A DNA stretch of 64,000 nt, from contig NC_092875.1 in assembly GCF_028372415.1 (NCBI RefSeq), positions 53,446,271-53,510,270 on the forward strand. Direction: 5' to 3'. Below, one piece after another: positions 7,049-57,603 of this stretch. The notes beneath the pieces were generated by a model that did no database searches, was not told the origin of the DNA, and saw nothing but the letters and a program-made list of their open reading frames with translations. The translations under genes and the position numbers were made by a program. This DNA is from Notamacropus eugenii (taxonomy: Eukaryota; Chordata; Mammalia; Diprotodontia; Macropodidae). Within the stretch, counting starts at the first letter, position 1; the number at the start of each line of letters is the position of its first letter.

Positions 7049-7129
7049 TGTAAAGTAGCACCATCAGGTTAACCATGAGCCTCAGGAGTACAGCCAGGCA
7101 GATGAGGATGATGGCCCAGGAGCGCATGT
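7049..7129 (-). pseudogene. MUC16: MUC16 transmembrane exon, acceptor lost
   Basis: The 81 bp exon encodes MRSWAIILICLAVLL then RLMVNLMVLLY, matching the single membrane helix of MUC16 (human LPFWAVILIGLAGLLGVITC). The donor GTAAGAG is intact. The exon begins AC, which with the preceding exon's final G makes GAC (Asp), as in human NSD-LPF. The two bases before it are AT, behind a good pyrimidine tract (TTTTTCCCCCC), where AG is required. The nearest upstream AG puts the helix out of frame. As written, the exon should be skipped or mis-spliced, removing the anchor. Confidence 0.75.
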
Positions 7130-7884
7130 ATGGGGGGAAAAAGAGGTGATGCTGAGGGGCCATCATGGGGATGCGGGGACATCACAGAGTGGGGAGTATC
7201 CTATGGAATTCCTACCCTGTGGGAAGGGAGGGGACAAGGAACAATCCATGGGGAGGATGGAGACTGAAGAACCCAACCCAGAATATCCCCCCCACCTCCC
7301 ATGCCACCAGACCTTTGCTCTTCAGAAGAAGCTGACTGACCTAGGGGAGAGGGGGTGGACAGACCAGGAGAGTGAATTTAGAGGAAGGAGCTGGGGCTCA
7401 GAGCATAGGAGAAAAGGAGTTGGGCAAACTGAGGAAAGGTCACTTGGAGGCAGAAAAGATGGTTCAGGGACCCCAGTGTCACACCCTGGGAGAAGAGAAG
7501 GTGATAATGCAGGGACCCAATGTCAGAACAGGGAAAGGTGAAAGTGATACTGAGTTATACTCAATGACAGGGAATGGCTTAAGGTGCAGGGCACAGTGCC
7601 TTCCCCATGCTCACCCCCACCACAGGGTGCTCAGGAAGTACAGATACACTTAGGGATCTGACACTTGGTAAGGATGATTGCTGTTCATTTATCTGATGAG
7701 CACAGTCCAAGACAGTGTTCTTGGATGCTCAGCATTGAAGCACTGGCTGGGGTGAGAGCAAAGTGTCATCCTAGACACTCAGTTCCTGCCTTTCCCCCAC
7801 TTCTCTTTCTCTTCAAGACTCAGTCTCAGCTCCCCTCCCCCACCCCAGGGAACTGGCATGGGGCCAAGCTGATGCCACACTCAC

Positions 7885-7923
7885 CCTTTTTCTTAGTTCC
7901 ATCTATTTGGTTGGTAGAATACC
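7885..7923 (-). pseudogene. MUC16: MUC16 juxtamembrane exon (GYSTNQ...), open
   Basis: This 39 bp exon lies between acceptor TCCTTAG and donor GTGAGTGTGG. With the flanking phase-1 junctions it reads GYSTNQIDGTKKK-D, matching human GYSPNRNEPLTGNSD just before the membrane helix. Both ends are phase 1, as the neighbours require. Confidence 0.75.
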
Positions 7924-8307
7924 CTAAGGACAGAGGAATATAGAATAAAGATAAGAAACCTATGGGTCTTGACCTGGGGAGCTAGATTGGGTAAGGAAGG
8001 ATTAGTTGAGAGGACAAGAGATGGAGAGACCACAGGGGACAGGGACAAAGAGACATCAGGGATCAGGGAGGGAGGAAAAGATATGGAGATCAAGGAGGTG
8101 ATTGTAGGGGACAGAGATGGCACTGGGGAGGCTGTCAGGCATCAGGAAATGTTGAAGGAGGGTCTTTGGGGAATGAGACATTAGAAGTCTAGCATTCCAG
8201 GAAGTCCTCATCCCTCCCCACTGCCCATCAGTGTTCATTCCCCAAGTACCCCTTTAAAAGGACAGAGAGACAAGGCTGGAGGGCCTGCCTCCCACTCAGC
8301 CCCTTAC

Positions 8308-8462
8308 CATCCAGCAGGACACTGTTCAGATCCAGGGTAAAGTTTTCTGTAGCCGGGTGGCATTGTTTGTCTGTGTAAGGTACTCTGCATACATAGCAGC
8401 CCTGTCAGAGCTCTGCACCTGAGAAGCTGATGTGAAGTCACACAAGGAATCCCCCCGTGTGA
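8308..8462 (-). pseudogene. MUC16: MUC16 last SEA domain, C-terminal exon, frameshifted
   Basis: Acceptor CCGGCAG and donor GTAAGGGG are good. The exon reads V-TRGDSLCDF, then DRAAMYAEYLTQTNNATRLQ, matching human TGVDSLCNF and VAIYEEFLRMTRNGTQLQ. The next human residues, NFTLDRSSVLVDG, are present here as NFTLDLNSVLLDG but two bases out of frame: CTACAG is followed by AAAACTTT instead of AACTTT. The exon is 155 bp where the phases need a multiple of three. The shifted frame stops at once, upstream of the membrane helix. Confidence 0.8.
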
Positions 8463-8719
8463 CTGCCGGGAGAGAGAAGCCTAGAGAAGGGTGAGTGTTG
8501 TCAGTGAATGAGGACGGAAGAAGGCAGGTGGGGAGGAGAGGACCCCGAGCCAAGGCCTCAAGGGAACTGGGCTGGATGGAGCTGGCCTCTGGCCTGCTAG
8601 GAACCTTCTGGGTGTGGAACCTCTTCTCAATGTACCATGTGGCTGCCAGTACCATCCCCCACTCCGCCCCCCCAAACACCAATTAGATTTATTTCTTAAG
8701 AGTTCTGTGAATACGTATT

Positions 8720-8965
8720 TATGGATCTGGACTGTAAGTTTCTCCAGGACACTGCCTGCTTTATTTTTGTATCTTTTGCACTATGTCTGATGCACAGTGT
8801 GCTGCCTAAAAGCTTATTGAACAGCTGATTGACTGTGACCTCCTTGGGGGCAGACACTGCTTCCTTTGTGTATTTTTATATTTATATTTCCAAGCATCCT
8901 GTTCTACTGCTTGGGACATAGTGGACATTTATAAATGCTTGTTGATTGATTGATCAGTCTCCCAG
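8720..8965 (+). repeat. L2/CR1-type LINE 3' tails
   Basis: Two successive tails with the signature 'aagtttctccaggac...', 'gacctccttgggggcagaca', 'cttgggacatagtggacatt' and the terminal TTGATTGATTGA motif of L2-like elements. Confidence 0.55.
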
Positions 8966-9009
8966 GCAGTTTGGCAACATAAGCCTGTTGCTTTCTGTAT
9001 CTTCTGGAC

Positions 9010-9215
9010 CAGGAGTGAGAAAAGTGTGGCATCGAGACCCTGTGTGGCCCTGTAGGTCCTCAAATGGGACCCTTTGACTGAATCCAAACATCACAGAACA
9101 AATCTCCTTAATAAAAGGATTTGTTCTGTAAAACTTGGACTCAGTTCAAAGGCCACACTTGAGGACCTAGAGGGCCACATGTGGCCTTGAGACTGAAGGT
9201 TCTGTACCCCAGCCC
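9010..9215. mobile_element. hAT-type non-autonomous DNA transposon (MITE)
   Basis: The unit begins CAGGAGTGAGAAAAG and its far end, read in reverse, is similar. The interior is near-palindromic: 'gtcctcaaatgggacccttt' against its inverted partner, around an 'ataaaaggatttgttctg' centre with 'cacagaacaaatc' on the left. I recognise this as a small hAT (Charlie-like) element with the CAGGGGTGG-type end. It has no coding capacity and its terminal bases are decayed. Confidence 0.65.
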
Positions 9216-9270
9216 AGGAGATCCCCTTTGCCTGGGTACTGATTTGAGGCAGCTTCTGGAAGGGAAGAAG

Positions 9271-9346
9271 GGAAGGAAGGAAGGAAGGAAGGAAGGAAGG
9301 AAGGAAGGAAGGAAGGAAGGAAGGAAGGAAGGAAGGAAGGAAGGAA
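9271..9346. repeat. (GGAA)n microsatellite
   Basis: About 19 tandem GGAA units, pure for most of their length. They lie in the MUC16 intron between the 10.8/9.56 kb exons and the 8.4 kb exon. Confidence 0.95.
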
Positions 9347-9531
9347 AGAGTAGAGGAAAACACCAAGTTCCTGAGACACAGCAGAGAAAGGGCTGGAAAG
9401 GCTATTCTGTTCTGAACATGGTCTGTTCTGGGAACTGGTCTCCACCAAGAGCTGCTTCCTGGAATCTTGGGGGTGAGAAGTTAGGGAGAAGTGGAGGCCT
9501 AGACAGAGCTGGCCCTGGGGAGAAACTTCAC

Positions 9532-9595
9532 CTAAATGTCTGCACTTGATAGAGAAATAGCTCTTCATGCTGCCATTTCTGAAGAGCTGGTTTAG
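9532..9595 (-). pseudogene. MUC16: MUC16 last SEA domain, middle exon, open
   Basis: The 64 bp exon between CTTACAG and GTGAAGT reads LNQLFRNGSMKSYFS then IKCRHL, matching human LNQLFRNSSIKSYFSDCQVSTF. Its phase-1 end joins the 8.4 kb exon in frame (GTC-ACA-CGG), so these two exons together are open until the lesion in the 8.4 kb exon. Confidence 0.8.
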
Positions 9596-10129
9596 CTGTA
9601 AGAAAAAGGAACATTTCCTAGGATCCCATCCTCAGGCCACATTGTGTCCAGAAAAAAAGAGAAAACTCATGCTATTGGGCTAGCATCTCTCTCTGGCAGA
9701 TACCCACCCAGGTGGGCCTAGATCAATGCAAACGATGGGCTGAGCTCACCTTCCTGGGCACCAGGGACCATCCTAGCCACAGTAGGCTCCGTGCCCACCC
9801 ACACCATCTTTACAAGTTTTCTAGAAGGGGCCTTCCTTTCCTGTTTCAGGGTCACCCACTTGTTTCCTTCTCACTAACAGGGTGATCTTGGTGAATTGCT
9901 GAAGCCCTTTCAGACTCAGTATCTAATTCTATAATATGAAGGGGCTCGCTAGATGGAGTCTAAAGTCACTTCTATCTCTTCATCCTACTCTTTCTAGTTC
10001 TTTGCTTCCTTGAGTCTCTTCTCAGCTGTCTTTCTCCTGTCCCCTTAGAGGTAGTGTGGCATACCTGGCTTCGAGGAAGACCTGGGTTTGGGTTCCTTCT
10101 GAGACATAATGGGTATGTGATGCTAGGAA

Positions 10130-10335
10130 ATCATAGGATTGTAAATTTAGAGCTGTGAGGGGCCCTCCAGGATATCAAGTCCAATTCGTGAATTTGACAA
10201 AGGAGGAAACTGAGGAGAGGAGGTTAAGTGACATGGTGGGGGTCACAAGCAAGTGTCTTAGATAGGATTTGAAGTCAGGTCTTCCTGCCTCCACATTCAG
10301 CGCACTAGCTACATGAGCTGCTTCACCTAATAGGT
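10130..10335 (-). repeat. MIR-type SINE, reverse
   Basis: The plus strand shows 'gacaaaggaggaaactgagg', then 'agtgacatggtgggggtcac' and 'tttgaagtcaggtcttcctg', the reverse pattern of a MIR/tRNA-headed SINE. Confidence 0.55.
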
Positions 10336-10711
10336 CACTTCCTAGAAGTCGTAGGTGAAGCACTGCCCTGCTTTTGGAGAGGGAATCACTTCACTGAGAG
10401 ATTTCCTTATCAATGAAATCATAGGTCCAGTAAAAATAAATAAAAAAAACAATTTTGCAGAGAAGTCCTCCCCCCCACAGTCCTGCGCATTGCCCTCCTG
10501 ACCCCATCCTCTTAGAGCGTCTATAGATCACAATTTCTTCCTATTTATTCTTCAGGGAACGTAGTGGATCGAGGTTGCCTAGGACTCTGCTAAAACTCTG
10601 ATGTGAACCATGCTCAGGGGTAAAGGTCAGGGAAGGGCATGCTTGGAGATCCCAGCCTGGCTGCTGGCTATGGCTCTTCCAAGAAGACCAGGGAAGGGAC
10701 TAGGAGCTCAC

Positions 10712-10847
10712 TGCATCCTTGCTGCCAGTTTTGTTCCTTGGTGCTTGGCAGAATCTAGTGTGTCAAATCCTGGGCATAGGGCAGGCTGGTGATGGTGAAA
10801 TTCAGAGGTAAGTCTGGGAACCTGGGGTCAATCAATCAGTGCCTTGG
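10712..10847 (-). pseudogene. MUC16: MUC16 last SEA domain, first exon, stop codon
   Basis: The exon runs from acceptor GTCTACAG to a possible donor GTGAGCTCC. It reads FPDLPLNFTITSLPYAQDLTH, matching human QHFYLNFTITNLPYSQDKAQ. A TAG follows directly, and an upstream TGA lies between the acceptor and the SEA core in the same frame. The remaining KEQNWQQG part resembles RNKRNIEDA. The SEA core is clearly recognisable and the frame is broken. Confidence 0.7.
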
Positions 10848-10900
10848 CTGTAGACAGTGGGAAGGCTAGTTCTAGTTCTGGGGAAAGAATAAAGATAAAG

Positions 10901-10933
10901 ATGATGATGACGATGATGATGATGATGATGATG
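10901..10933. repeat. (GAT)n microsatellite
   Basis: Eleven ATG/GAT triplets with one variant (GAC). Confidence 0.9.
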
Positions 10934-11624
10934 GAGGCCCAAGTTGGGAGAGGTCAAAGAGAGGTCATATAGGCCAGAGTCCCTTTCCTCTAGGGATAGA
11001 AAGATAACTGGCCCTCTCTCTGGCTCATACTCTGACCTTCTAAGATAAATGGCCCCGATGTCCATTTTAGGAGGCCAGGACATGCCCAACTGCTCCCAGA
11101 AAATGTCTGCTGAGTTAGAACCATAGATGGCCAGAACTGGAGGCTCCTTTAAGAGTTTGGTTCCCTCATTTGACATGTAGAAAGGCTGAGGGGCAGTGAG
11201 GTTTGTCTATCAGATCCAGAGACATCCTTGCCACTCATTCTAAACCTTTTCTTGTGATGACCTTTCCCAGGACACTTTCTTTCTGCGTTTGTGGGAACTC
11301 CAGAGGTTCCCAACAGGATTTGCCCTCAGATATAAAATGCACACAAAGTTAGGAAGCCCAGCTCCAATGTCCCTTCCTCCAGGAAGCCCCCTGAATTGGA
11401 GGGCCAGGAATAGTCAGTCCCCTAGGACATCACAGAGCTCTCCATTATGCTTAGATCTAATGCATTTATAATGTAATAGTCTATATTATCCCCAGCCAAC
11501 TCTCCTAAGTGTCAAGTGGTTTAAAATCTACATTACTAGAGGAAACTTTTCCACCAGGTGCTCTGTTCATGCACAAAATTACAGATGCAGCTTCCCCTCT
11601 TATCTCTTCTGTTATCCCCTTGAG

Positions 11625-11765
11625 AAGCAATATGGCAAAATGGGTAGAAAGCTGACTTCAGAGACAGGAAGACCTGGGTTCAAGTCCAGCTGCTTCTGGC
11701 ACATTCTGTTTGACCCTGGAGAAGTCCCTTTACCTCTCAACGTCACTCTGTAAGACTAAGATACA
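11625..11765 (+). repeat. MIR-type SINE copy
   Basis: Contains 'ggaagacctgggttcaagtc' and 'tgaccctggagaagtccctt', the tRNA-box and CORE portions of a MIR-like SINE. Confidence 0.55.
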
Positions 11766-11850
11766 AAGTGTGTGTTGATGTGCACTGGGAAAGGGAGGTC
11801 CCTAACTGGAGTTCTCTGCATCTATGAAATCCCAGGCATAGACTTCTGGA

Positions 11851-11952
11851 AAGGAGAGGAGGGGAGTGGAGGGGAGGAGAGAGGTGAAAAGAGAGGAGAA
11901 GAGAGGAGAGGAGAGGACTGGACAGGAGAGGAAGGGAGAGGAGAGGAGAGGA
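11851..11952. repeat. Purine-rich GGAGA tract
   Basis: About 100 bases of nearly pure A/G on the plus strand with a GAGAGGAGAGG pattern. Confidence 0.85.
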
Positions 11953-12499
11953 ATGCATAGTACGTTTTTGCATATTTGTATCTCTCTATCTGTGGTTTTT
12001 TCTAGTGGCAGTGGGGAGGGAGGGAGGGAGGGAGACAGTTTGGAACTTACAATGTAACAAAAAAATACATTAAATTAAATTTTAAAAAAGAAAGGAAAGG
12101 AACAGGCATTTATTAAGCACCCATTATGTGCTAATTGTTTTACATATAAATAGATGTTTTCTAAATGAAAGAGGTTTGAACATGCACAGAGAAATAGATA
12201 GAAGGGGAAGCCTGAAGGGGATAAGAAATGTGTGGTCTATGGCCCTTTGAGACCTCCACTTTGGTCTCAGGGAAGCCTTCATCACTGAGGCTCTCAGAAG
12301 GCACTTGGAAAAGTGATGAGGTTCTGCCCTGCACAGAGAACACTTCCAGCTCCTTGTTTGGGGCTGGGGGAGTATAGGGATGGTCTGGAAATCTAATTGT
12401 TTCTTCCCAGCTCTGACACTTTCTGCAACTTTGGGCTAGGTTGTCTGCTCGCTGGATCTCAGTTTGCTCAATTGCAACAGGGTTGGAGTCTCCAAGGCC

Positions 12500-12690
12500 C
12501 TTCCCAGATCAAACCTTCTACATTCTGTATGCTAAGGATACTCGCTAAGCTCTGACATCCTGGATTCTAAGGGCTTCCCCCAAAGCTCTGACAATCTCCA
12601 TTCTAAAGGCTCTCCCAGCTTTGACTTTCTAGGTTCTAAGAACCTCCCAGTTTTAGCCATATTATGCCTTATATTCTAAGAAACTTCCTA
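12500..12690 (+). repeat. Degenerate tandem repeat, unit about 35 bp, grown from a MIR tail
   Basis: The phrase 'gctctgacatcctggattctaagg-cttccc' recurs about five times with changes ('agctctgacaatctccattc', 'ctttgactttctaggttcta', 'agaacctcccag'). It directly follows a MIR-like block at about 12365-12500, so the array seems to have formed by expansion of that element's 3' part. Confidence 0.5.
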
Positions 12691-12868
12691 GTTCAACACC
12701 GTTTCAATCCCTAAGTCTTAATTTCACCTCCACTTCCTGGAGTACAAGCTTGTCAAGTGCCTCCCTTCTGTTTCTGTTCACCTCAAGCCCATTTCCCATC
12801 TTCTGTCCCCTCTGCAGCTTCCCTCCTCCTCCCTCCCCCAGCCATTTAGGCCTTGGCATCCTCCCTAC

Positions 12869-13010
12869 TTGTCATGTGGAAGTTATCCAGCTTGTAAAAG
12901 TCCCTGAGGCTGCAGCATTCCAGGTCCCATCCAAAAACACTAGTCCATTGGTGTCAGGATCCAGGTTGGAGGAGAAGCTGCAGTTGCAGATGACCAGTAC
13001 AGAGCCCATG
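12869..13010 (-). pseudogene. MUC16: MUC16 membrane-proximal domain exon (FSSNLDP), frameshifted
   Basis: Acceptor TGGTCCACAG and donor GTAGGGAGG bracket 142 bp reading MGSVLVICNCSFSSNLDPD then VFLDGTWNA, against human MDSVLVTVKALFSSNLDPSLVEQVFLDKTLNA. The next human segment, STYQLVDIHVTE, is recognisable as YKLDNFHMT but in another frame. A frame-changing indel therefore lies after the TWNA segment, and the original frame ends at TGA just before the donor. Confidence 0.75.
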
Positions 13011-13207
13011 CTGTGGACCAAGATTACAGGACATTTGGTCAGGGGACCCAATTGCCCTTCCCAGTGTGGCCTTGGTCTTCAAAGTTAACAACTCTGGTGT
13101 GAGTTGAGGTGGTTTTCTTTCCTGTAGCCCAGGGAGGCAAGGTGAGAGGACTCCACAAAACCTCAGTGATCAATTGATCAATCAACTAGCATTTACTGAA
13201 CACCTAC

Positions 13208-13756
13208 TGTTGAGGTTCAGGGGTGCTAGGGAACCCTGAAATACCAACACGCTGGGTCTTGCTTGAATGAATTCGACACAAGCCTTCTTAAAGCCAAAGA
13301 AAAACCAAGTTTATTAAAGATTTGCCACCTTGGGTTGACTCTTAAGGAGCCTAACTTTTTCTAACACTTGTATTGCAAAGTAGGCCAGATAGAATCTTAA
13401 CTAGACAGTCTGAACTGGATTGAATCTCAGCGCCTTCAGGGAGGCAAGATGGACCTTAAATACAGAAAAAGACTGACGGAAGAATCCAGGTGCCGCCAAC
13501 TAGTCTGGGGCTCCTGGAATGGTCTTGATGGGGCAGTCTAGATAGACTTTAGGGAGGGTCTTGATGGAAGTGGCTGGTAATAAGATCAAAGGAATGCTAA
13601 ATAGAAGATAGGGAGTATCCAACCTGGGAGAAATGGAAAGGGAATCCAAGCAGCGCCCCCAAAGGCCAGACTTTCCGGGGGGCCCTTCAGACAAATGGGA
13701 CAAAAACCCTCCTGATCCAAGGGAAAAAGGTCTTGGCTTGGGCTTGTACCTCACCA
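13208..13756 (-). mobile_element. Solo LTR of an endogenous retrovirus (fossil)
   Basis: A 549 bp unit has ends TGTTGAGG and CCTCACCA (near-perfect inverted repeats). It is flanked on both sides by CTAC, a 4 bp target duplication, and sits inside an older SINE/LINE tail ('catttactgaacac' on the left, 'atgtgcaaggtactgtgcta' on the right). A polyadenylation signal on the minus strand near 13310 gives the orientation. A 4 bp duplication fits class I (gamma-like) elements. No internal region remains. Confidence 0.65.
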
Positions 13757-14059
13757 CTACTATGTGCAAGGTACTGTGCTAGGCACTGGAGAGACATGTT
13801 CACCTAATCTAATCTCTGGCAGGGAAAGAACTCTTCTATAGTGTCCCTGATAGGTTGCTTTTTCTATCTTCTGCTCAACCACCAGTGGTTCTGATTTTAA
13901 GGATGTTCTGTCATTAAGTGGAAGTCTATCTCCTGTACAACTGCCAACCCCACCACCTTGCCCTTGTTTTCTCCACTTGAAGCCCATAGCGGAAGTCTGT
14001 TTGTTTTGCCCCATGATGGCATTCCAACACTGGAAGATTTTTCTCCAGTACCCTGAGAC

Positions 14060-14470
14060 TGCAGAATCATCGAATCTAAGCATTGGGAGGGAACTCAGTG
14101 ACCACCTAGACCTGTACCCCTCAACAACATCCCTGACAAGCATAATCCGTTCTCTGTCTACCCCCCAATATGCCTGTGACTCAGTGAGGAAAACCACCAA
14201 TTGAATTGTTTCAACTTATCCTCACAGTACAAGGTTCAGAGTTTCCTTCCCCTTCCTCTACACTGTCCTCTTTTCCTCCTGAAATGTGGTGACCAGAACT
14301 GGAGCCAACCTTCCATTTGGGGTCTATTTGGGACAGAGGGCCCAGTGCCTCCATGTCCCTGATCTGGGACCCTATTTTTTTATTCATAAGGCCTGAGGTA
14401 ATGTCAGCTGTCCTGACTGTATTCTCTTTTCTCCAGGACTGTCCAGGGGCACAGAGCAGGTGGAAATCAC
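14060..14470 (+). repeat. Ancient interspersed repeat of the 21.6 kb family
   Basis: Shares its order of phrases with the block at 21.6-23.9 kb: 'gggagggaactcagtgacca', then 'ctgacaagcataatc', then 'tgaaatgtggtgaccagaac'. Probably an old LINE 3' region (CR1/L3-like); class uncertain. Confidence 0.35.
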
Positions 14471-14639
14471 CTGAGAGGAAGTGATTGTAGTCAGGACAGG
14501 CACCAAGTCTGGCCCAGGATACAGTTCTCTATGGCATACAATCTATAACCTTACACAAACAAGGTTTCCTCACCTCTGAATGTTTACTCTGAAATTCTGA
14601 TGGTTAGAATCACATAGGATTTTAGGAGCAAAGATTTAG

Positions 14640-14840
14640 GCTTGGAAGGGACCCCACTAAATATCAAATCCCATGACATAGAAGAGAGACCACTGGTTCT
14701 GGGTCTGATGACAGAGGATCTGGGTTCAAATCCTGCCTCTGACACTCACTACTACCTTGATCAGCCTCACTTTCCTTATAGGTAAACTGAGGAGGCTGGA
14801 TTAAATGGCTTGTGAGCTTTTTAGGTTTCTTCCAGATCCA
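14640..14840 (+). repeat. MIR-type SINE copy
   Basis: 'gatctgggttcaaatcctgc', then 'ctttccttataggtaaactg', then 'gaggctggattaaatggctt' is the MIR order. Confidence 0.6.
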
Positions 14841-14881
14841 CAATTCTCTGTGTGTCTCTGTCTCTTTCCCTGTTTCTCCCC

Positions 14882-14886
<5 letters not shown>

Positions 14887-14916
<30 letters not shown>

Positions 14917-14975
14917 TGTCTGTCTGTCTGTCTGTCTCTGTCTCCCTCTTGCTTTCTCTGTCCATGTGTGTGTAT
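14887..14975. repeat. (GT)n and (TCTG)n compound microsatellite
   Basis: About 14 GT units pass directly into TCTG units and then into CT/GT-rich sequence. Confidence 0.9.
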
Positions 14976-15883
14976 GTGTGTCTGTTGGTCTGCCTCTCCT
15001 CCTACAGTGGAACTGTGGTTCAAACCTTGATCCTCTAATCAGAATCTGAAGGCATTAAATTAAGAAGTTGAGGGGCAAAATATAAGTGTTATCTGTGGGT
15101 ATTTGAAGTATTTTTTGAGAGAGTTGTGTAACATTAAACCATCAGTACTTACAAATTCATGAGCTCACAATAGTTCATGAGCTTGACTGGAAGAGCAAAA
15201 TCAAGTACTGACAAGACAGGATACAAAGCATGAACATGGGCGGGGATGGGGGAGAGAAGGGATGGAGAGGGAGAGGGAGACGACATAGGGGACAAAGTCT
15301 GAAGTAGATTGAACACCCTGGGGAGGTATATAGGAGGGGAGAGGGCAGGGCATATTGAAGTCACTGTGGGGAGAGATTAAGGGGAGGACCATGAAGAGAT
15401 GGGACTCCAGTCATCCAGGGTTATACCTTACCAAGAGACAAATTTATTTTGATGAAAGGAAAAACAGTTGTAGTTTCCCCAAAGTGGAAAGGACAGCCTT
15501 GGGAAAAGATGAGTTCTCTCTTACTAGACGTCTTTAGACAGGAGATGGATGATTATTTGTCAGTCACGTGATATTAGGGACCTTTGTTCAGGTCTAAGGT
15601 GCTCTAAACATCTTCTATGGTTCATTGCAATCCTGGATTCTGCAATCTATCTGGGCCCTGCCACTAGGCCCCTCTGTGGAGGGACTAGGTCTGAGGTCCA
15701 GACTTCCCATTAATGCCTTCCTTCTACCTCTGGAACTCTTATTCTCCCCATCCCTTCTGGTTACATATAAAGCTCAGACATTTCTACCATCCATACCCTT
15801 GACCCACATCAGTAAGATCCCTATCAACTCATGCTTTCCCCCATTTATGTTGATCCCTATTTTTCTTCCTTCAACCATTCATT

Positions 15884-16045
15884 CATCCATCCATCAGTCC
15901 ACGCGTCCATCCATCCATCCATCCATTCACCTGTCAGTCTGCCAATCCATGCATATTTCTATGTATCTATCTGTCTGTCAGTCTGTCTGTCTGTCTGTCT
16001 ACCTATCTATTGATCTGTCCATCTATCCATCTACTCATTCATCCT
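15884..16045. repeat. (CCAT)n / (TCTG)n / (CTAT)n compound microsatellite
   Basis: Tetranucleotide runs CCAT, then TCTG, then CTAT follow each other over about 160 bp, with point changes. Confidence 0.85.
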
Positions 16046-16189
16046 ACTGACAAATATTTATTAGCCATATGTCATATGGAACTATGGGAAAGACAGGAAG
16101 ATAAAAGTCACATACTCCTTGCTTTCAAGGAGTTTTCATTCTAATAGCAGAGCAACCTATGAGAGAGAAATAAGTACAAATGTAGGCTA

Positions 16190-16410
16190 AATGATAGAGT
16201 GAATAAAGCATGGGACCTGAAGTTAGAAAGACCTGGAACAAATTCTGCCTTAGAGAGTTGCTAGCTGTGTGACCCTGGACAAGTCACTTGACCCCTCTCA
16301 GCTTTAGTTTTCTCATCTCTAAAGTGAGGATAATAATAGCACCTGCCTAACAACGTAATTATCAAGATGTCCTGAAAAGGGCTATGGAAATATTAGCTAT
16401 GATTTTGAGA
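16190..16410 (+). repeat. MIR SINE copy
   Basis: A well-preserved MIR pattern: 'gctagctgtgtgaccctgga', then 'caagtcacttgacccctctc', 'tttctcatctctaaagtgag' and 'gataataatagcacctgcct'. Confidence 0.7.
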
Positions 16411-17525
16411 AGCCTGGACAAAGTGCTAGGAGAAATTTTAAGATGGAGGATCACCTTTATTTGGGGGCAGGAAGGAAAGGACTGGGAAAGATTCTTGGAG
16501 GAAATTGACTCCTGAGCAAAACCACTACTAGTAATTTTTTTTTTAATTTAACTTTTAACATTTATTTTCACAAAATTTTGGGTTACAAATTTTCTCCCCT
16601 TTTATCCCCTCCCCCCCCCAAACCCAAGCATTCTAATTGCCCCTGTGACCAATCTGCTCTCTCCTCTCTCCTCTCTCCCTGTCCATGTCTCCGTCTTCTC
16701 TTTTGTCCTGTAGGGCCAGATAGCTTTCTTGACCCCTTAACCTGTATTTCTTGTTACCCAGTGGTAAGAACATTACATTTGGTCCTAACACTTTGAGTTC
16801 CAACTTCTTTAGCTCCCTCCCTCTCCACCCCTTCCCCTTGGAAGACAAGCAATTCAATATAGGCCAAATCTGTGCAGTTTTGCAAATGATTTCCATACTA
16901 GTTGTGTTGTATAGGACTAACTATATTTCCCTCCATCCTATCCTGTCCCCCATTACTTCTATTTTCTTATGGTTCTTTCCCTCCCCATGAGTGTCGACCT
17001 CGGATTGCAATCTCCTCCAAATGCCCTCCCCTCCATCCTCCCCCCCACCCTGCTTGTGCCCCTGTCCCCCACTCTCCTGTATTATGAGATAGGTTTTCCT
17101 ATCAAAATGAGTGTGCATTATATTCTTTCCTTTAGTGGAATGTGATGAGAGTAGACCTCATGTTTTTCTCTTGCCTCCCCTCTTTATCCCACCACTAATA
17201 AGTCTTTTGCTTGCCTCTTTTATGAGAGATAATTTGCCCCATATAACTTCTCCCTTTCTCCTCCCAATATTTCTCTCTCACTGCTTGATTTCATTTTTTT
17301 TTAAAGATATAATCCCATCCTCTTCAATTCACTCTGTGCGCTCTGTCTCTATGTATGTGTGTGTGTGTGTGCATGTGTGTGTGTGTGTGTATTCCCACCC
17401 AGTACCCAGATACTGAAATGTTTCAAGAGTTACAAATATTATCTTTCCATGTAGGAATGTAAACAGTTCAACTTTAGTAAATCCCTTATGACTTCTCTTT
17501 GCTGTTCACCTTTTCATGGTTCTCT

Positions 17526-18518: not shown

Positions 18519-18689
18519 GCATTATTCCTCCCCATCAGAAAGGAAGGGAGGAAGTGTCTTTTCTCCGAGAAAGTACCCTTCAATAGTTTTATCTCTTTTC
18601 CCTTTTCTGGGCATTCTCCCCAGCCAGTGACCTGACCTCTGAATGTTCTCCTCACACCCTCCTCGCCTCCTGGTCCTCCCAGCCAGCGT

Positions 18690-20340: not shown

Positions 20341-20560
20341 ACATTGGTGGGAGGAAGAGGAGAGGGAAAGAGAGAGAAAGAGGAAAAGGAGAGGTGAGAT
20401 AGAGAATGGGGAGGAAGAGAGAGACATATATGGCTGGGAAGGGGGATAGAGAGGGAAGAGGGGGAGGAGAGAAAAGAGACAGAGACAGAGTCAGAGAAAG
20501 AGAGACAGAGGGACGGAGAGACAGAAAGAGACCGAGAGAGAGACAGACAGAGACAGAGAC
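20341..20560. repeat. Purine-rich (GA)n-like tract
   Basis: About 220 bases almost free of C and T on the plus strand, made of GAGA, GGAA and ACAG motifs. A long polypurine strand of this kind can adopt triplex structure, but nothing here shows a function. Confidence 0.8.
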
Positions 20561-21440: not shown

Positions 21441-21579
21441 GTGAAAGAACCTCTACATCCCTGGTCTATGGCAGTGGAAGGGACTGGGCTAGGACAGAGC
21501 TTGAACTTAGTTCTTCATTAGTAGGGATAACATCTGTTATCCCTGAAACCTCTGACTGATGCCCATGGAGCAAAGATTA

Positions 21580-41905: not shown

Positions 41906-41946
41906 TGCAGCATGCCAAGGTTAGGGCAGGGAATGAGAAATCTCAC

Positions 41947-48051: not shown

Positions 48052-51000
48052 CAAAAAATAGAGAACTCAATAGGTATTGTATCCAAATAGTAGCCCTGAG
48101 TGAAACAAGGCTGGCAAATGAAGGCCAATTTACTGAATTTGGAGCTGAATACACATTTTTCTGGAGAGACCACAGTTAAGGAGAGCACCGTGAAACTGGT
48201 GAAGGTTTTGCAGTCAAAACTAACCTAGTCAGCAAGCTGGTATGCCTGCCAAAAGGAGTGAATGACAGGCTCATGACAATGTGACTGCCGCTTGCAGGAA
48301 AATGTCATGAGTCCCTATGCTCCCACCATGATGAAGCCTGATGAGATCAAAGAAAAATTTTATGAAGACCTAGAGAACCTTATCATGAATGTGCCAAAAC
48401 AGGACAAGTTTATAATTCTGGATGACTTTAATGCTAGAGTAGACTCAGACTCTCTGACTTGGCAGGGAGTGCTAGGGAGAAATGGTGTTGGAAACAGCAA
48501 CAGCAATGGTCATTTACTGCTGAAGACTTGTGCATCACATGACCTCATCACCAATACTTTTCCATTTACCTAAGCACAATAAAACTTCATGGATGCACCT
48601 TCTTAGCAAATACTGGTATCTAATAGACTATGTGATTATAAGAAGAAGAGACATACAAATGTCAGAGTGACAAATGCAATGTGTGGTGTAGAGTGCTGGA
48701 CTGATCATAGACTTATCCTTTCCAAGCTAAATATTTTCATTCATCAAAAGTACCATCCCCAAGGCAAAATGACTACCAGAAGAATTAATGTCAACAAATT
48801 GGAGCTTTTCTTTGAGCAGGGGCAGTTCGTTGCTAACTTGGAGGGAAAGTTGAGCCAACACATAGTGGCAACATTGGAGCAGAAAAGGAGTGGGCAGCTT
48901 TCAGAGATTTGGTGTACAGCACTGCATTTGCTCATCTGGGTCAGAACACTCATAAACACCAAGACTGGTTTGATGAAAACGATGGGGAAATTCAGAAGTT
49001 GCTAAATGAAAAATGAGAACTCCGCAGGATATACCAGCAGGATAGTTCAACCACCTCTAAGAAGGCAGCATTTAATTCCATCATAAGCAAAGCACAAGCA
49101 AAGCTTAGAGAGATGCAGGATTCCTGGCTCAGTAAGAAAGCAGATGAAACTCAGTTTTATATTGATAGTAATAATCCAAAGTGCTTTTATGATTCCCTGA
49201 AAGCTATTTATGGACTAAAAACTTATGGTGTATCACAACTACTCAATGCTGATGGAACCACATTGATTAGTGATAAGGACATGATCCTAGAAAGACGGGT
49301 TGAATACTTCTATAGTGTTTACAACAGACCATCATCAATCATTCCTGAGGCCATTGACCATTTACCTCAGGTTGAAGGCAATCCTTTCTTAGTTGAACTT
49401 CCAACTGAAGAAGAGGTTTTGAAGGTCATTAGGCTCTTTTCATGTGGCAAAGCACCTGGTGCTGATTCTATTCTAGCTGAGATTTACAAGGTAGGGGACT
49501 GTTGCTCATACAAAAGCTGACTGAAATTTTCCAGGTTATATGGAAAGAGGAGGTTATCCCCCAGGAGGTCAAGGATGCCTCCACTGTCCATCTCTATAAA
49601 GGTAAAGGGAATAGATTGTCCTGCGACAACCACAGGGGGTGTCTCTTTCTTAATCATTGCTGGCAGAATTCTTGCTAGCGTTTTCCTTAATAAGCTGATC
49701 CTTCACCTGGAAGATGGTCACATACCTGAGAGCCAGTGTGGCTTCAGAAAGGGCTGAGGAACAGTTGATATGATGTTTGCTGCCTGACAACTCCAAGAGA
49801 AATACCAGGAGCAGAACAGAGGTCTGTACACAAGGCCTTTGACATTGTTAGTCATGAGGGCTTATGGAAAATTATGTCAAAATTTGGTTGCCCAGAGAAG
49901 TTCATCAGTATTGTAAGTCAATTTCACGATGGCATGTTTGCCTGGGGTCTGGATAGTGGACAATGCTCTCGTGCCTTCCCAGTCATCAATGGAGTGAAAC
50001 AGGCCTGTATGTGCTTGCTTCCATGTTTTTGAGCATGATGTTTTCAGCAAGGTCAATTACTGTACTGATGGTAAATTCTTCAATTTGAAAAGGCTACAAG
50101 CCAGGACTAAAGTGGAGGGAGTGTTGGTGCACGATTTTGTTTGCAGATGATTGTGTACTCAATGAAGCCTCTGGAGCTGAGATGCAACAAAATGTGGATC
50201 AACCCTCTGCTGCCTGTGCTAATTTTGGCCTAATAATTAACACCAAGAAAATACAGGTGCCCCATCAGCCCCCACCACACTATCTATATGTGAAACCATT
50301 GGTTACAACAAATGGAGAAGTTTTGAATGCTGTGGATAAGTTCACTTACCTTGGTAGTATACTTTCCAGGGATATGTCGATGCAAGCATTGCCAGAACTA
50401 GCTCAGCATTTGGGAGGCTCTGAAGAAAAGTTTGGGAGAGAAGAGGTATTAGACTGACTATCAAACTGAAGGTCTACAGAGTCGTTGTGCTGACCTTATT
50501 GTTTCATGCCTGTGAAACATGGACAATCTACCAGCACCATTCCAGGAAACTGAATCACTTCCATTTGAACTGTCTTAGGAAGATTCTGAGGATCACCTGG
50601 CAGGATAAGGTACCAAACCCTGAAGTCCTTGCTTGAGCTAAACTGCCAAACATTGAAACTATGCTTCAGAGAGTGCAACTTTGATGGGCTGGCCATGTTG
50701 TTCGAATGCCAAATGTATGCTTGCCAAAGACTATTTTATGGAGAACTCATATGGGGCAGGCGATCACATGGTGGTCAGAAGACATGATACAAGGACACTC
50801 TCAAGTTCTCTCTCAAGAACTTTGGAGTTGACTGTGCAGCATGGGAGACACTGGCACAGGACCACTCAGCATGGCATGCCCACATCAGAAAGGGTGTTGT
50901 GCTCTATGAGCAAAGCAGAATTGAGACAGCACAAAATAAACATAGGATATGTAAATTTGGCATATCCACCCCAAATATTCACACGAACTATCTGTGCCTG

Positions 51001-51120
51001 ACCTGTGGTAGAGCATTCCGAGCTCATATTGTTCTGATTGGCCAAGTTGGACACACTGAAATTTCACTTTATCATGGTGATGTCATTTTGGTCTCCCTTG
51101 AGAACGAGGGACAACAACCA
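48052..51120 (+). mobile_element. RTE-clade LINE, endonuclease and reverse transcriptase part
   Basis: Continues the RTE frame after the RNF41 insert: VALSETRLANEGQF (endonuclease), VPKQDKFIILDDFNARVDSD and CWTDHRLILSKLN (catalytic C-terminal strands), then the reverse transcriptase with FSCGKAPGADSILAEIYK, SQCGFRKG and the active-site box FADDC near 50140. The frame is broken many times by stops and indels. The 3' end is the simple 'gagggacaacaacca' typical of RTE tails, directly followed by the target duplication. Confidence 0.85.
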
Positions 51121-51179
51121 ACTGGAGATTGGTGATGGAGTTGACAAGGTGTGTGGAGACAGACAGGTTCTCACAGGAG
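51121..51179 (-). pseudogene. MUC16: MUC16 cassette 2, linker exon 1b, 5' half (split by RTE)
   Basis: Begins after acceptor TTTATCCTCAG and reads PVRTCLSPHTLSTPSPISS, a mucin linker. The RTE insertion cuts it inside the exon; the 3' half is at 42318-42347. The same acceptor context (TTTATTCTCAG) precedes the intact paralogue at 38536. Confidence 0.65.
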
Positions 51180-51505
51180 CTGAGGATAAATCATGAAGAA
51201 TGGAAATTATTGATAAAGTCACGGTGTGGACAATTTCATATTGCATATGGGAGAAAAGTGCTCAACTTGATTTAGTCACAAAATCCCTTGGGGAGGATTC
51301 AAAGCAGTGTTGGGATGGTGCTCAGCAGCCACAGGAAGAAACAGATTTTTGTGTAATCTGTTCCTGGCAAAACTTGTTAGGCTCTCTGTTTTCTCACTAG
51401 AATGCCTCAGGTCTTTACTTTCTTTAGGTGTTACATGGGAAACATGGGATCATTTCAAATAACCATGGGAACATTTTTGATTAGGTGCTAGAAATTCATG
51501 TCCTT

Positions 51506-51510
<5 letters not shown>

Positions 51511-51567
<57 letters not shown>

Positions 51568-51576
51568 TGTGTGTGT
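51511..51576. repeat. (GT)n microsatellite
   Basis: About 32 GT units with one AT interruption. It sits at the same intron position as the shorter (GT)n at 56341-56363. Confidence 0.95.
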
Positions 51577-51806
51577 CTGTTAGGTGGAAGGGCTCTGAAA
51601 TATGGCACAACCAAGGTCACCCTCCCCCAACCAAGATTTTACCAAGTTTCAGATACTGGCTTGCCCTTGTTTGGAAGGTGTTGGTATGAGGTGATTTTTA
51701 AAGTTTAAGGCAATTTTCACTTTCATAATTAATTATATTCTCTCCCCAGCTTGCATGTGGGACTCAGGGAACATTCCCCAGGGTACCAATGTTGCCTCAT
51801 TTCTAC

Positions 51807-51866
51807 CTGTGGAGGTTCCAGGCCCTGAGGGCTCCTTGAAAGCTGGAAATGATAACACAGTGAGTG
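51807..51866 (-). pseudogene. MUC16: MUC16 cassette 2, linker exon 1a, intact
   Basis: 60 bp between CTCTTGCAG and GTAGAAATG, reading LTVLSFPAFKEPSGPGTST. Phases 1 and 1. Confidence 0.75.
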
Positions 51867-52534
51867 CTGCAAGAGCTGAAAAAAAACATAAAAGAGGTGA
51901 CATTGAAAAGTGATAGAGACCACTGTGGCCTACCACTCTATCAGATCATCCCAATATTAATGGGGTCATTCATTAAGTGTTGTACATGTAGGAAATGCCT
52001 AATAAGTGTTTGACAAATGACTAAATGAATGACACTTCAAGTTGACTTAAATGCCTGGGTTCTCACAGGAGAATCCTTTCATAAGGACAGGGCTAAAATT
52101 TCCTGCTAGTGACACTATACAAGGGACACCATCATGAGTTCTCTTTCAGAAAATCTCTCTGAGATGAGGTCCACTGTTAATATTTCTGATTATCCCATGA
52201 GGATATCTTGGTAAGTTATCACTATGCATCTTCATGCAGAACACCTGGAATCCCAGAGAATGAAACAATGTTTCTAGATCATGAAGGTCCAGAGGGATCT
52301 AAAGCCCATTTTTTTCTACCCTGGGACATTTTCTTCATAGAATCTCAGTACTAGAAAAGTCCTCAGAGTTCATCGAGCCCTCTACTAAAGCATTCTTAAC
52401 ATCTTGTGTCTTTATGTTTCTAGCAATGAGAAATGCGCTATGTTTCAAGACAGTCCTTTGGGGTGAAGTAGAGAACTCCTTTCTAAAGACAGGAATGTAG
52501 GACTGAAAGTTGATTTGGATATCAAAACACTTAC

Positions 52535-52570
52535 TGGCTTTGAGTTGTATGGAATGGTATTCATTATAAT
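52535..52570 (-). pseudogene. MUC16: MUC16 cassette 1, exon 5, intact
   Basis: 36 bp between GGCTTTACAG and GTAAGTGTT, reading DYNEYHSIQLKA with the borrowed G. Confidence 0.75.
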
Positions 52571-53078
52571 CTGTAAAGCCAAATGATACAGAAGGAAGGG
52601 AAGGAGATCAGAAAAGAAGGAAAAGAAAATTGGATAGACTCTAGGATGAGATCAAGTACTATCAAGATGATAGCATTTGTGCCAAAGAATGGCAGGCAAG
52701 AGGAATCATGTTCCTAAGGACCCATGAATGAAGAGACTGGGAATGAAACCATTTTCAGATTTGAACATGAAGGAAATGGACACTGGGTGGCGGCATTGCC
52801 TTTGCTGCTTGCCCACTCTGAGCCTTAGCCAGGAAGTGAATGTAAGAGTTTGAGTTCTCTGGTCATCTCCTTAAGGGAGAAGAGTAGCTTTCTTCTGGGC
52901 ACTTCCTCAATCTGTGCCATGAAGTTTTGCCATGAAGGTAGAGATAAGAAGCTTATGGGGATTTAGGTGGCACAAAGAGAGCCTTGATTCATTTCTTTTT
53001 TGCTATGTCCTGGCCTGTAGAAACATAGCTGAAGGCCAAGCTTCACCTTCAGCTTCAGCTGATGGTGAGGAATCTCAC

Positions 53079-53236
53079 CATCAAGGTAGAAACTTTCCCT
53101 GTCTACAATGTAGGGGCCCATAGGTCTGGTAGCTCAGCCCCCAGTAAACCTTTGCTCGTCTAGAGAGGGATTGATTGGCTCCCCTTGATGGTTGCACACA
53201 GCATCCACTCCAGTTGCTGAGCCATCCTTCGTAGAT
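53079..53236 (-). pseudogene. MUC16: MUC16 cassette 1, SEA exon 4, stop codon
   Basis: 158 bp between TTCCACAG and GTGAGATTCC, reading RSTKDGSATGVDAVCNHQGE, PINPSLDE, then a TGA before GPYIVDRESFYLDG. In the neighbouring frame the middle reads VYWGLSYQTYG, matching LDREKVFWKQSYHTYG of the 40.7 kb exon, so paired indels have shifted the centre of the exon. Confidence 0.8.
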
Positions 53237-53663
53237 CTGTGGAAGTAAACAATTGTTGAGGCCCCCCAGGTTAAATGCTAAGATATTGGCTTGATGAAGA
53301 GATTGGAGATAATTAAACTTAAATGAAGTGACATGAAATAGGTTGATAGTGAGTTCATGATGGTGGAAAAACTCCCATTCCATGTGTGGTTAGGATGGAT
53401 GTATAGCCACACATCTCCCCTTGGAGAGATGTATTTCCACAGGATAGCATTTGTTCCCAATCATGGCAAACAAGGGGAATCATTTTCCTACTGATGCAGG
53501 AATGAAGAGAATGAGATGGAAACTGTTTTCAGTTTTGTAGATAGAGGATATGGACACTATGTGGACATTCCCTCTGTTGCTTGTCTACCCTGAGACTTAG
53601 CCATGAACTTGGGGCATCAAGGGAGATGATCTCAGGGCTCCAGATTTTATCCTCAGGTCTCAC

Positions 53664-53731
53664 CTCAGAGCAATCATTTTGTATCCAACCTAAGAGTAAC
53701 CAAATCTGCTTTCCTTGAATAAGGGGCTGAG
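53664..53731 (-). pseudogene. MUC16: MUC16 cassette 1, SEA exon 3, acceptor lost and stop
   Basis: 68 bp aligned to intact paralogues: LSPLFKESRFGYS, a TAG, then VGYKMIALR before donor GTGAGACC. The expected acceptor AG reads GG (TTGATGG). Confidence 0.75.
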
Positions 53732-53836
53732 CCATCAAGGAAATAAGCAGAGGAAGGAGTAACCAGCTTTTAAAAGGCTCCACAGTGGGGGCTTGCTGTG
53801 CAGGAGGTAGGTTGGTCAGGGCCTGTGGAATTTCAC

Positions 53837-53960
53837 AGTTGCTCAATATTCTATCAATGAAATTGAAAATACAAGAGTCAGGGTGATCCATGCCTTCTGT
53901 GTAGAGTAGGTTGGCGATGCTGACGTTTAAGGTGAAAAGTTTCAGGTTGTTGCTCACCAG
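53837..53960 (-). pseudogene. MUC16: MUC16 cassette 1, SEA exon 2, frame-altered
   Basis: Reads FTLNVSIANLLYTEGMDHPD then SCIFNFIDRILSN. Splice sites (TGTTACAG and GTGAAATT) survive. It is 124 bp against 125 in intact paralogues: one extra base before the FTLN strand and two missing at the end, so the SEA core is out of frame with its neighbours. Confidence 0.8.
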
Positions 53961-54217
53961 CTGTAACAGAGGAGGGAAACAAAAGACCTACACCTGAGCC
54001 CTGGACACATTAAACAAAGAAATCCTTTGACACCCTCTCCTTCTATTGTCTCCCTTTTTCCCGGAAGGAAAACTTATACCCCACGGCTCCACTGCCATCC
54101 ATATCAAGGAGTCTCTACCATTTCACAAACCTTCCTTCCCTATACTTCTTCCCTTGTTTTTCTCATCTTCTAATAAAGCACAATAAGACACTCATGGGAA
54201 TGGATAATAGGTACAAC

Positions 54218-54291
54218 CTTTTAACAGCGGTACTGGAGAATGGTGATGCTGCCGATGAGGTGTGTGGAATGGTAAGAGGTTCTCACAGGAG
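54218..54291 (-). pseudogene. MUC16: MUC16 cassette 1, linker exon 1b remnant
   Basis: Starts after TTTATGCTCAG with CTCCTGTGAGAACC, the same opening as the 51.12 kb exon piece. It then diverges, has a TAA near its end, and its length (74 bp) does not keep frame. Confidence 0.6.
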
Positions 54292-54374
54292 CTGAGCATA
54301 AATTATGAAGAATGGAAATCACTGATAAGGGCACAGTGTGGACAATTTCATATTGGATGTGGGAGAAAAGTGAT

Positions 54375-56110
54375 TGTTCTAATAATTCTTAACATTGGAA
54401 AGATAATTTGTTCACTTCTTTATGTAATTTGAGTAATAGATCATGAGGAGGAAGTACATCTCTAGCCAGAATGATGACCCCAAATATGCAAAATAGAAAA
54501 CAAACAAAAAATAGATACCAAATATTCATTGTTGGACTGTGAGGCCAGATGTTCCAGCACTGTATACAGGGACACCTGGTTTGGCAGGATATGATTTACA
54601 TTGTTTAGAGGATTTTAGGTTGGACAGAAGCAAGAAAAATCTCAACTGGAATAAGTACAAGAATCACGAAAAATCATTTTGGATGTATATTATCTAAATC
54701 AGGATTAGTAAGTAGCTTGAGGAATACATGTACTGACTAGAGTGATTCTAATTATCAAGGAGAAGTTATTATGACACTTCAAAATTTAGGTGAAGAACCC
54801 CTACAGTTTTGTAAAAGTGACAGAATAGTTCAAGTGATTATTATTCCTTGTGAAAAAATACTCCTTGTGAACACTGACCTTCTTTCCAAAATAACAAGCA
54901 GAGAAACTGAAGGAATGTGTTCTACTGGTAGAATTAGATTGAGAGATAGAATATGTGTACAATGGAAGTCAGATGATGTTCTAAAGGCTGCAGAAATTAT
55001 AGCATATGGGAAGGATAAAGCCATAACTGTTGTTTATTTAGCAGAAGATGATTACCAAATTGTACCCTTAACTCATATAGTCTATCATGAACGAGGCTAT
55101 GATAGTGGATTCATGGACTCCAGAAGCATGGCTGACCTTGCATCTATCCTGCTTCTGGTTATTGTCTCCTTGCTTCTTTTTAGTTTTTTGTCCATTAAAC
55201 TTCTTTGCTAGATTTATTTTCTGCAGGCTTAGTACCCTATACCTGAAGATGCCTGATTGCTTAAGCCCAATGTCACCCCTTGTCCACAACTGAGATATAT
55301 CACCCCTGGAATTGGCATCGACCAAGCTCTGGCTACCAGCTAAAGAACTGACCTCTCAATGGGACCTCTTGGGGCAGGGACAGTTCTACATTTAATTTGC
55401 AGGAAGTAGCTATAGAAGAAGAGACCTTCCCCCTTACCCCAAGATTTTAGGCCCCATTCGTTAGAGAATGATGGGGTGCTCATGCTCAAGTCCCACCCTA
55501 AGGTATTGTTTTATGTGCTTATTTTGTGCTATCACTGTTCTATTGTTATAAAGTTCTGTTGACACCAGTAGCCTGAGATATTGCTTTATACACTTAATTT
55601 CTGTTATCCTTGTTACAATTCATTGATACCAGTTGCCTCATCAACCTATGTAATGAATATGAAAGATCCTGGGGCCAAATGTAATAGTAATTTAAATGGG
55701 AAGATCTTTCCCATTCATTCATAGGCCTATGTGAGCTGCTTAAATCACATGGAAGCCTAAGTCACATGTGGTGGGAAGAGCTTGCTGAATGGGTGGAATA
55801 GGTACCACGGAGCAGAACTTAGAGGAAGTTCTTGAGAGCAGTTACAGCAGAGGGAGAGGACACAGGCAAACAGGCTTCTGAGTGTTTATTTGTTTTCAGG
55901 AAGGCCCCTGATGAGGGGAGGGAGATTTGGGAATGGCGTTGTCCCCTGTAGTGCTATTTGGTATCCATGGATTTGGCTTTCTGGTTTTGATGTCTCAATA
56001 AATGTTTTTCTTCTGCCTTCTATATGGAGTCTGTTATACTTTGTCATTCTGAACTATGCTGTCATTTTCATAGTTGCCATTGGTGCTATAAATATTGCCT
56101 GGGAGATACA
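54375..56110 (+). mobile_element. 3' part of an LTR retroelement (endogenous retrovirus fossil), broken
   Basis: The element interrupts one copy of a local duplication: 51.1-51.3 kb continues without it. It holds a decayed dUTPase-like domain, a downstream open stretch ending in a hydrophobic segment, and a 3' LTR at about 55680-56110 (431 bp) that starts TGTA, ends TACA and has AATAAA near 55997. The 5' LTR, gag and most of pol are absent. A dUTPase near the 3' end without a recognisable envelope suggests an ERV-L-like (class III) origin; this is not certain. It is clearly broken and post-dates the duplication. Confidence 0.6.
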
Positions 56111-56340
56111 GGGAGGACTTAAATCAGTGTTGGATGATGGTCAGTAGCCACAGGAGGAAATAGATATTTAATAAGCTGCTCCTGACAAAACTTGTCAGGC
56201 TCTGTGCTTCCTGAGTAGAATGCCCCAAGACTTCACTTTCTTTAGGTTTTGCATGGGAAACATGGGATCATTTCAAAGAACTATGGAAATACTTTTGGAT
56301 TAGCTGTTTATTACCAGAACATGTCCTTCTTTTGTGTATT

Positions 56341-56363
56341 TGTGTGTGTGTGTGTGTGTGTGT
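56341..56363. repeat. (GT)n microsatellite
   Basis: About 11 GT units; positional equivalent of the longer array at 51.5 kb. Confidence 0.9.
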
Positions 56364-56598
56364 TTGGGAGGAGAGTTTTGAAATATGCAGCTTGCCATAG
56401 TCACCCTTGCCCACCCAAGATGTTATACCAACTCTCAGATGCTGGTTTGACTACTTGTTTGGAAATTGACTATTTATTAGAATGAAGTGATTTTTAAGGC
56501 TGATGGCAATCTTCCTTTTCATAATCATATTCTCTCCCCAGCTTGCATGTAGGACTCAGGGGACACACCCCAGGGTACTACTGTTGTCGAATTTCTAC

Positions 56599-56657
56599 CT
56601 GTGGAGGCTGAGGCCCTGAGAGCTCCTTGAGAGTTTTAAATGATAACACAGTGGGCG
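56599..56657 (-). pseudogene. MUC16: MUC16 cassette 1, linker exon 1a, acceptor lost
   Basis: Aligns base by base with the intact 51807-51866 exon, ending before donor GTAGAAATTC. The acceptor AG of the paralogue (CTCTTGCAG) is replaced (TTTTGGCAC), and one base is missing near the 3' end. Confidence 0.7.
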
Positions 56658-57567
56658 TGCCAAAAGCTATAAAAAAAACAAGAAGAGGTGACATTGAAAA
56701 GTGACAGACCATTGTGGCCTACCACTCTGTTGGGTCATCCCAATATTAATGGGGTCATTAATTCAGTGTTGCACATTTAGGAAATGCCAAATAATTGTTT
56801 GACAAATGATTGTCTGAATGAATGTGGATGGATACTTTGAGATGACTTTAGCTGCCTGGGTTTTCACAGGAGGAGTCTTTGATTAGAACAATGGGTCAAG
56901 TGCCCTGTGGGTGACATAATACAAGAGATACTATCATAAGTTTTCCTTCAGAAAATCTCTCTTAAATAGGACCTGGAATCTTCCACAATAGAACGTAAAC
57001 CCATTCAGAGCAAAGATTGCTTCATTTTTTGACTATATTCTGAGCACCTTGTTCAGCAGCTGATATATAGATGGAAGTTAAGAAGTGTATGCTGAGTATT
57101 TTATTGTGAAGACAGTTTTACAAGTCATCTCCACCCAATTTCTAGTAAAGGAAGTGGAAATACTGGAATAGGCCATGGTTCCAGAGCAAGAGGGACTTGA
57201 AAGAGTACTCTTTCCCTTAACTTGAGGCTTTTCTTCACAGAATCACCCAAATTCTATAATATCAGAGCCGAAATGATGCTCAAAGCGCATCTAGTGGAAC
57301 ACCTGAACACTCCAATATCTCCAACAACTGGTCCTTTAGCCTCAATTTGAAGGCCTCCAGTGATAATGGCCTTTATTCTTCATTACTTTCCCAAAGTTGC
57401 TATATCTACTTCTTGGATTCCTTTTCTCATAACACCTGAATGGGCTACAGGGTCAAGGGCTTGGCCAAAGGCACTGGGGTCCAACTTCAGGGGTCAAGAA
57501 AGGAATAAGGTTCAGGGCTCCAAGATGGCCAAAGATTATGATGAGATTAGAGTGTCAACATACTTAC

Positions 57568-57603
57568 CAACACTGGGTAGTTCTGGATCATGTTCATTAT
57601 AAC
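57568..57603 (-). pseudogene. MUC16: MUC16 SEA exon 5 of the preceding cassette, intact
   Basis: 36 bp between GGTTTCCAG and GTAAGTATG, reading GYNEHDPELPSV with the borrowed G. It is the most upstream MUC16 exon recognised in the window; its own exons 1-4 are not seen in 57.6-64 kb. Confidence 0.75.

Follow-up and report, generated by a model that had tools for sequence, protein, structure and literature searches.

The window analyzed here is a 64,000-nucleotide stretch of the Notamacropus eugenii genome (C14:53446271-53510270, i.e., C14:53.45-53.51 Mb). It contains SEA-domain mucin exons on the minus strand, and their condition raises the question of whether the animal has lost MUC16 (CA125) or carries a broken second copy of the gene. 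The whole genome (3.45 Gb, 254 contigs) was searched with a SEA profile; with 150 of 210 candidates scored, at least 23 matches were obtained, most of them (16) at C14:70.02-70.10 Mb, with 5 more on C23 and a single match each in the window and on C2. Judged by eye, the translations of the C23 and C2 matches were SEA exons that were not MUC16-like; the C2 exon resembles MUC1. A second MUC16 locus was located at C14:69.96-70.12 Mb, on the same contig as the window and approximately 16.5 Mb from it. A SEA unit spliced in silico from this locus matched PDB chains named Mucin-16 (best E 3.2e-37), and its C-terminal chain matched mammalian proteins named mucin-16; therefore, the name MUC16 holds, and the earlier note was right to give it to the window exons.

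The region C14:69.96-70.17 Mb was read in stretches of 10 kb. A chain of 12 exons (C14:70098664-70117654) was in frame and encoded 445 aa, with canonical splice sites and a natural stop; in this chain, the last SEA domain was joined in frame to the transmembrane segment and the cytoplasmic tail. The locus also contained 14 tandem SEA units of about 4.65 kb each, with SEA exons of identical protein sequence. When joined, these units gave 1707 aa with no stop, and 84 of 84 splice dinucleotides were present. In ungapped comparisons of about 2 kb, introns included, units 1-13 were 99.8-100% identical to the first, and the last (14th) unit was 84.8% identical to it, a value that would include any shift caused by indels. 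The uniformity of the units suggests a recent expansion or gene conversion. The SEA array was found at C14:70028410-70088962 (loci L014-L020). Further upstream there were Ser/Thr/Pro-rich ORFs, known at the ORF level, with 46% S/T/P: five of 1018 aa, one of 1010 aa, and one of 884 aa truncated at the edge of the fetched sequence. At C14:69960001-69988074 (L032, L009-L010), the tandem units measured about 4.24 kb, were nearly identical to one another, and carried one Ser/Thr/Pro-rich ORF each, about 1018 aa long. The 70-Mb copy thus has what is expected of such a mucin, namely tandem SEA domains, a long Ser/Thr/Pro-rich region, and an in-frame transmembrane segment and tail.

Damage was called for 22 MUC16 exons of the window by comparison with their counterparts at C14:70 Mb. 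Outside this count are the c exon of the 38-kb cassette (W3) and the b exon of the 42-kb cassette (W4), the latter of which was not found in 41.50-41.96 kb, the interval in which it was sought. The features are listed below, with indels as signed lengths.

6964..6976, minus strand: remnant of the cytoplasmic tail exon, the last 13 of 99 nt; the remainder lies in a gap between aligned blocks
7049..7129, minus strand: transmembrane exon (TM), broken; acceptor AG to AT, +1; counterpart C14:70116345-70116424
7885..7923, minus strand: linker exon preceding the transmembrane exon, open; splice sites preserved, length reduced by 3 nt
8308..8480, minus strand: c exon of the last SEA (F_c); -2 then +2, shifting the frame of the exon body relative to its borders
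9532..9595, minus strand: b exon of the last SEA (F_b); -4
10712..10877, minus strand: a exon of the last SEA (F_a); +4, -2, +1, -1
12869..13010, minus strand: exon FSS (VTCNCSFSSNLD...); -5, -2
20707..20759, plus strand: exon Q (TQLYSGSQLQDRFRYCLITGL), on the wrong strand for the gene; -15, in-frame stop
24994..25113, minus strand: exon P_d (TPGQGEYQLDFRI...); -10 near the exon start
26450..26602, minus strand: c exon of the penultimate SEA (P_c); acceptor AG to AA, -2, -18
27071..27138, minus strand: b exon of the penultimate SEA (P_b), open
27227..27351, minus strand: a exon of the penultimate SEA (P_a), open
32149..33044, minus strand: SEA cassette W2; W2_a and W2_b open, W2_c broken
32.15-32.30 kb, minus strand: W2_c exon; acceptor lost, -7, +1, -13
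37904..38218, minus strand: SEA cassette W3; several indels in W3_a (38.09-38.22 kb), W3_b open
40685..42061, minus strand: SEA cassette W4; a and c exons damaged
41.95-42.06 kb, minus strand: W4_a exon; -1, -9
40.69-40.86 kb, minus strand: W4_c exon; two in-frame stops
53079..53960, minus strand: SEA cassette R, homologous to the 70-Mb array unit; 3 of 3 exons broken
53.84-53.96 kb, minus strand: R_a exon; -1, -1, +1
53.66-53.73 kb, minus strand: R_b exon; acceptor AG to GG, in-frame stop
53.08-53.24 kb, minus strand: R_c exon; -1, -14

Sixteen of the 22 exons were damaged by frame-changing indels, stops, lost acceptors, inversion, or near-deletion, while six were open (W3_b, W2_a, W2_b, P_a, P_b, and the linker at 7.89-7.92 kb). 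As a control, the same reading of the 70-Mb copy found damage in 0 of 54 exons (12 from the C-terminal chain, 42 from the array). These counts bear out the earlier claim that at least a dozen MUC16 exons carry indels, stops, or lost splice sites, and the exons it named as needed for the membrane anchor, at 8.4 kb (F_c) and 7.1 kb (TM), were indeed among those hit. Around the tail exon, window 5523-6976 corresponded to 149087-147642 of the 70-Mb locus in the numbering called big70, and window 6996-9139 to big70 146477-144374; the full tail exon of the 70-Mb locus is big70 147556-147654. Since the TM exon is broken, the tail exon is almost gone, and one exon is inverted, the window copy, to judge by its sequence, cannot encode a membrane-anchored MUC16.

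Alignment of the two copies revealed the following large-scale features of the window, including a pair of L1 elements with ORF1-type open frames (331 and 339 aa).

3..59914, minus strand: duplicated block, matching C14:70.02-70.12 Mb (introns too) in inverse orientation, in pieces separated by insertions
16014..21306, plus strand: inverted segment within the duplicated block, with same-strand matches to big70 136583-139628; the flanking blocks match the opposite strand
16536-19464: L1 inside the inverted segment, with an ORF1-type open frame
59925-62645: L1 adjoining the duplicated block, with an ORF1-type open frame

The inverse colinear blocks shared roughly 76-85% identity over exons and introns. 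Homology ran 2.3 kb to the left of the window, matching as far as C14:70125757, some 8 kb past the tail exon. On the right of the window, C14:53.5257-53.5302 Mb matched the repeat ORF region (about 73%) on the same strand; this piece therefore has the reverse orientation to the rest of the block. There was no window counterpart of the cassette at big70 52.78-53.97 kb (C14:70.023 Mb), which fell in the gap 58711-58745, and window 32-42 kb had no one-to-one partner in the 70-Mb locus. At C14:70092793-70092843 (L021), a SEA a-exon fragment was observed on the wrong strand, matching the window cassette at 33 kb; the 70-Mb locus seems to have lost the counterpart of this cassette by a small inversion and deletion. 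Window 42323-51121 and 54360-56110 were insertions between pieces of the duplicated block. Their ORFs gave a dUTPase match of 25.4 bits (cut-off 22) and a reverse-transcriptase match of 24.0 bits, below the cut-off of 29.6, and the insertions are likely old retroelement relics.

Non-exonic divergence was calculated from 12 selected blocks, each comprising 700 or more aligned bases; other blocks and repeats were dropped. It amounted to 14.8% raw over 23,525 sites (Kimura distance 0.167), with 337 gap events. The mammalian neutral rate is near 2.2e-9 per site per year; with this rate, the distance of 0.167 would place the duplication, very roughly, about 38-40 million years ago.

In the C-terminal alignment, counting only sites where the marsupial outgroups agree, the window copy had 33 derived amino acids vs. 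12 in the 70-Mb copy (chi-square 9.8). Two maximum-likelihood protein trees, for which the koala and opossum rows were cut by hand and the reading of the window copy was X-masked, paired the window and 70-Mb copies among the marsupials with modest ultrafast bootstrap values (81 and 74). The branch of the window copy was longer than that of the 70-Mb copy in both trees (0.264 vs. 0.118 in one, 0.194 vs. 0.085 in the other). Derived residues and branch lengths alike showed that constraint on the window copy was relaxed relative to its 70-Mb paralogue. Differences between the copies by codon position were 13.2, 14.7, and 16.8% (416 codons, both branches pooled), a mild unevenness such as would be expected with one unconstrained branch and by itself no proof of constraint on the 70-Mb copy. 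Glider, koala, and devil were placed differently in the two trees, so the duplication may be either older or younger than the split from these lineages.

Among the marsupial models, opossum had at least two different mucin-16-like models assigned to a 538-Mb contig (proteins P0059, P0089, and P0106 concerned), which may be separate genes, parts of a single gene, or an old duplicate pair. In the koala mucin-16-like proteins P0001 and P0018, a portion of the FSS exon is translated out of frame, but in P0095 it is in frame; this discrepancy could be an assembly or annotation fault. Three koala MUC16-like genes were considered and rejected, as P0001, P0012, and P0018 were nearly the same sequence and looked like partial models of one locus.

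The window is most probably an unprocessed duplicated pseudogene of the MUC16 3' region, the other copy having kept its function (probability about 0.93). This reading follows from the duplication of introns and flanking non-coding DNA, the open paralogue, and the damage to the window copy, with several independent disabling mutations spread over the 16 damaged exons. The 3' region of MUC16 would have been copied to a remote position on its own chromosome, or copied and then rearranged; the duplicated segment would have reached from the repeat region to about 8 kb past the tail exon, and its present position is some 16.5 Mb from the other copy, in inverse orientation. The 70-Mb copy may then have stayed under selection, kept its coding function, and expanded its SEA array. 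Point mutations and small indels would have eroded the window copy, along with an internal inversion, the loss of its tail exon, and inserted retroelements, and the excess of replacements in this copy fits a decay that began soon after duplication. Points against a decayed duplicate are the six exons that are still open, the modest tree support, the merely mild unevenness over codon positions, and the unpartnered 32-42 kb.

An unlikely alternative, which nevertheless keeps some weight, is that the duplication is older than the lineage and common to other marsupials, some of them perhaps with two working genes. The two different opossum models on one contig (P0059 and P0089) and the modest support for the pairing of the copies speak for it; however, both trees pair them, and none of the marsupial proteins compared came nearer to the window copy than its 70-Mb counterpart did. 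It is quite improbable that both copies are dead, the 70-Mb locus being open at its 3' end but broken further 5' or silent. The stretch read there stops short of the gene start and promoter, but none of the 54 exons compared there was damaged, and it had long Ser/Thr/Pro-rich ORFs and fewer replacements than the window copy. A similarly small chance is left to a truncated secreted or regulatory transcript made from the open exons of the window copy: P_a/P_b and W2_a/W2_b are adjacent open pairs with splice sites, yet the c exon after each pair is broken.

The earlier note had proposed that the 3' region of MUC16 was inactivated in this genome and that a marsupial had thereby lost CA125. Inactivation was upheld for the window copy, which is clearly broken, TM and tail exons included, but not for the genome, as the 70-Mb locus was open through the TM exon to the stop. 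The loss itself was contradicted by the open C-terminal chain, the 14 open SEA cassettes, and the Ser/Thr/Pro-rich ORFs of that locus, and the disappearance of the only MUC16 is therefore highly unlikely. The 70-Mb copy could not be noticed earlier because only 64 kb had been seen. Since at least one other locus, with an intact end and membrane anchor, is present on the same contig, the window is not readable as a CA125 loss, and the animal has probably not lost MUC16. Assembly or sequencing error as the source of the contrast of 16 damaged exons to 0, or the window as an alternative haplotype of the 70-Mb locus, has a negligible chance, because the copies sit 16.5 Mb apart on a single 478-Mb contig of the same assembly, with the non-exonic difference given above, and the window has 10-18-nt deletions, an inverted exon, and large insertions, while none of the 54 exons compared in the 70-Mb copy is damaged.

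With the window read as a decayed duplicate, a false claim of gene loss is averted: the broken copy alone looks like a loss of CA125, but an open copy is present on the same chromosome. The pair is also an annotation trap, as exons of both copies could be merged into one gene model, and it offers a decay series with a date, next to a mucin locus whose repeats are strikingly uniform. What remains of interest is these very uniform repeats of the surviving locus and a possible former second CA125-type mucin. It is conceivable, though rather doubtful, that the duplicate at first functioned for a while, in an ancestor of this marsupial, as a second membrane mucin, of which the window preserves what is left; the lineage would then have passed from two CA125-type mucins to one, and the surviving gene would meanwhile have enlarged its SEA array to 14 units. 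Among the titles and abstract beginnings listed in literature searches, none described a marsupial MUC16 duplicate or pseudogene. According to the title of one study, CA125/MUC16 is dispensable for mouse development and reproduction (PMC2650410).

Compared with known systems, the locus resembles MUC16 (CA125) in its three-exon SEA cassette and in the linker, transmembrane, and tail exons that come after the last SEA. It differs in the damage to the window copy, whose tail exon is mostly missing, and in the 14 SEA units of the 70-Mb copy, which are identical in protein sequence. Inactivating mutations over many exons of the window are as in a unitary pseudogene (gene loss); such a pseudogene has no functional copy elsewhere, whereas here an open MUC16 copy is present in the same genome at C14:69.96-70.12 Mb. 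The likeness to an unprocessed duplicated pseudogene lies in the copied introns and non-coding flank, the damage to frame and splice sites, and the intact paralogue; the inverse orientation, the distance of 16.5 Mb, the internal inversion, and the retroelement insertions are the differences. The window copy has no feature beyond this known kind and is an ordinary duplicated pseudogene of a known gene.
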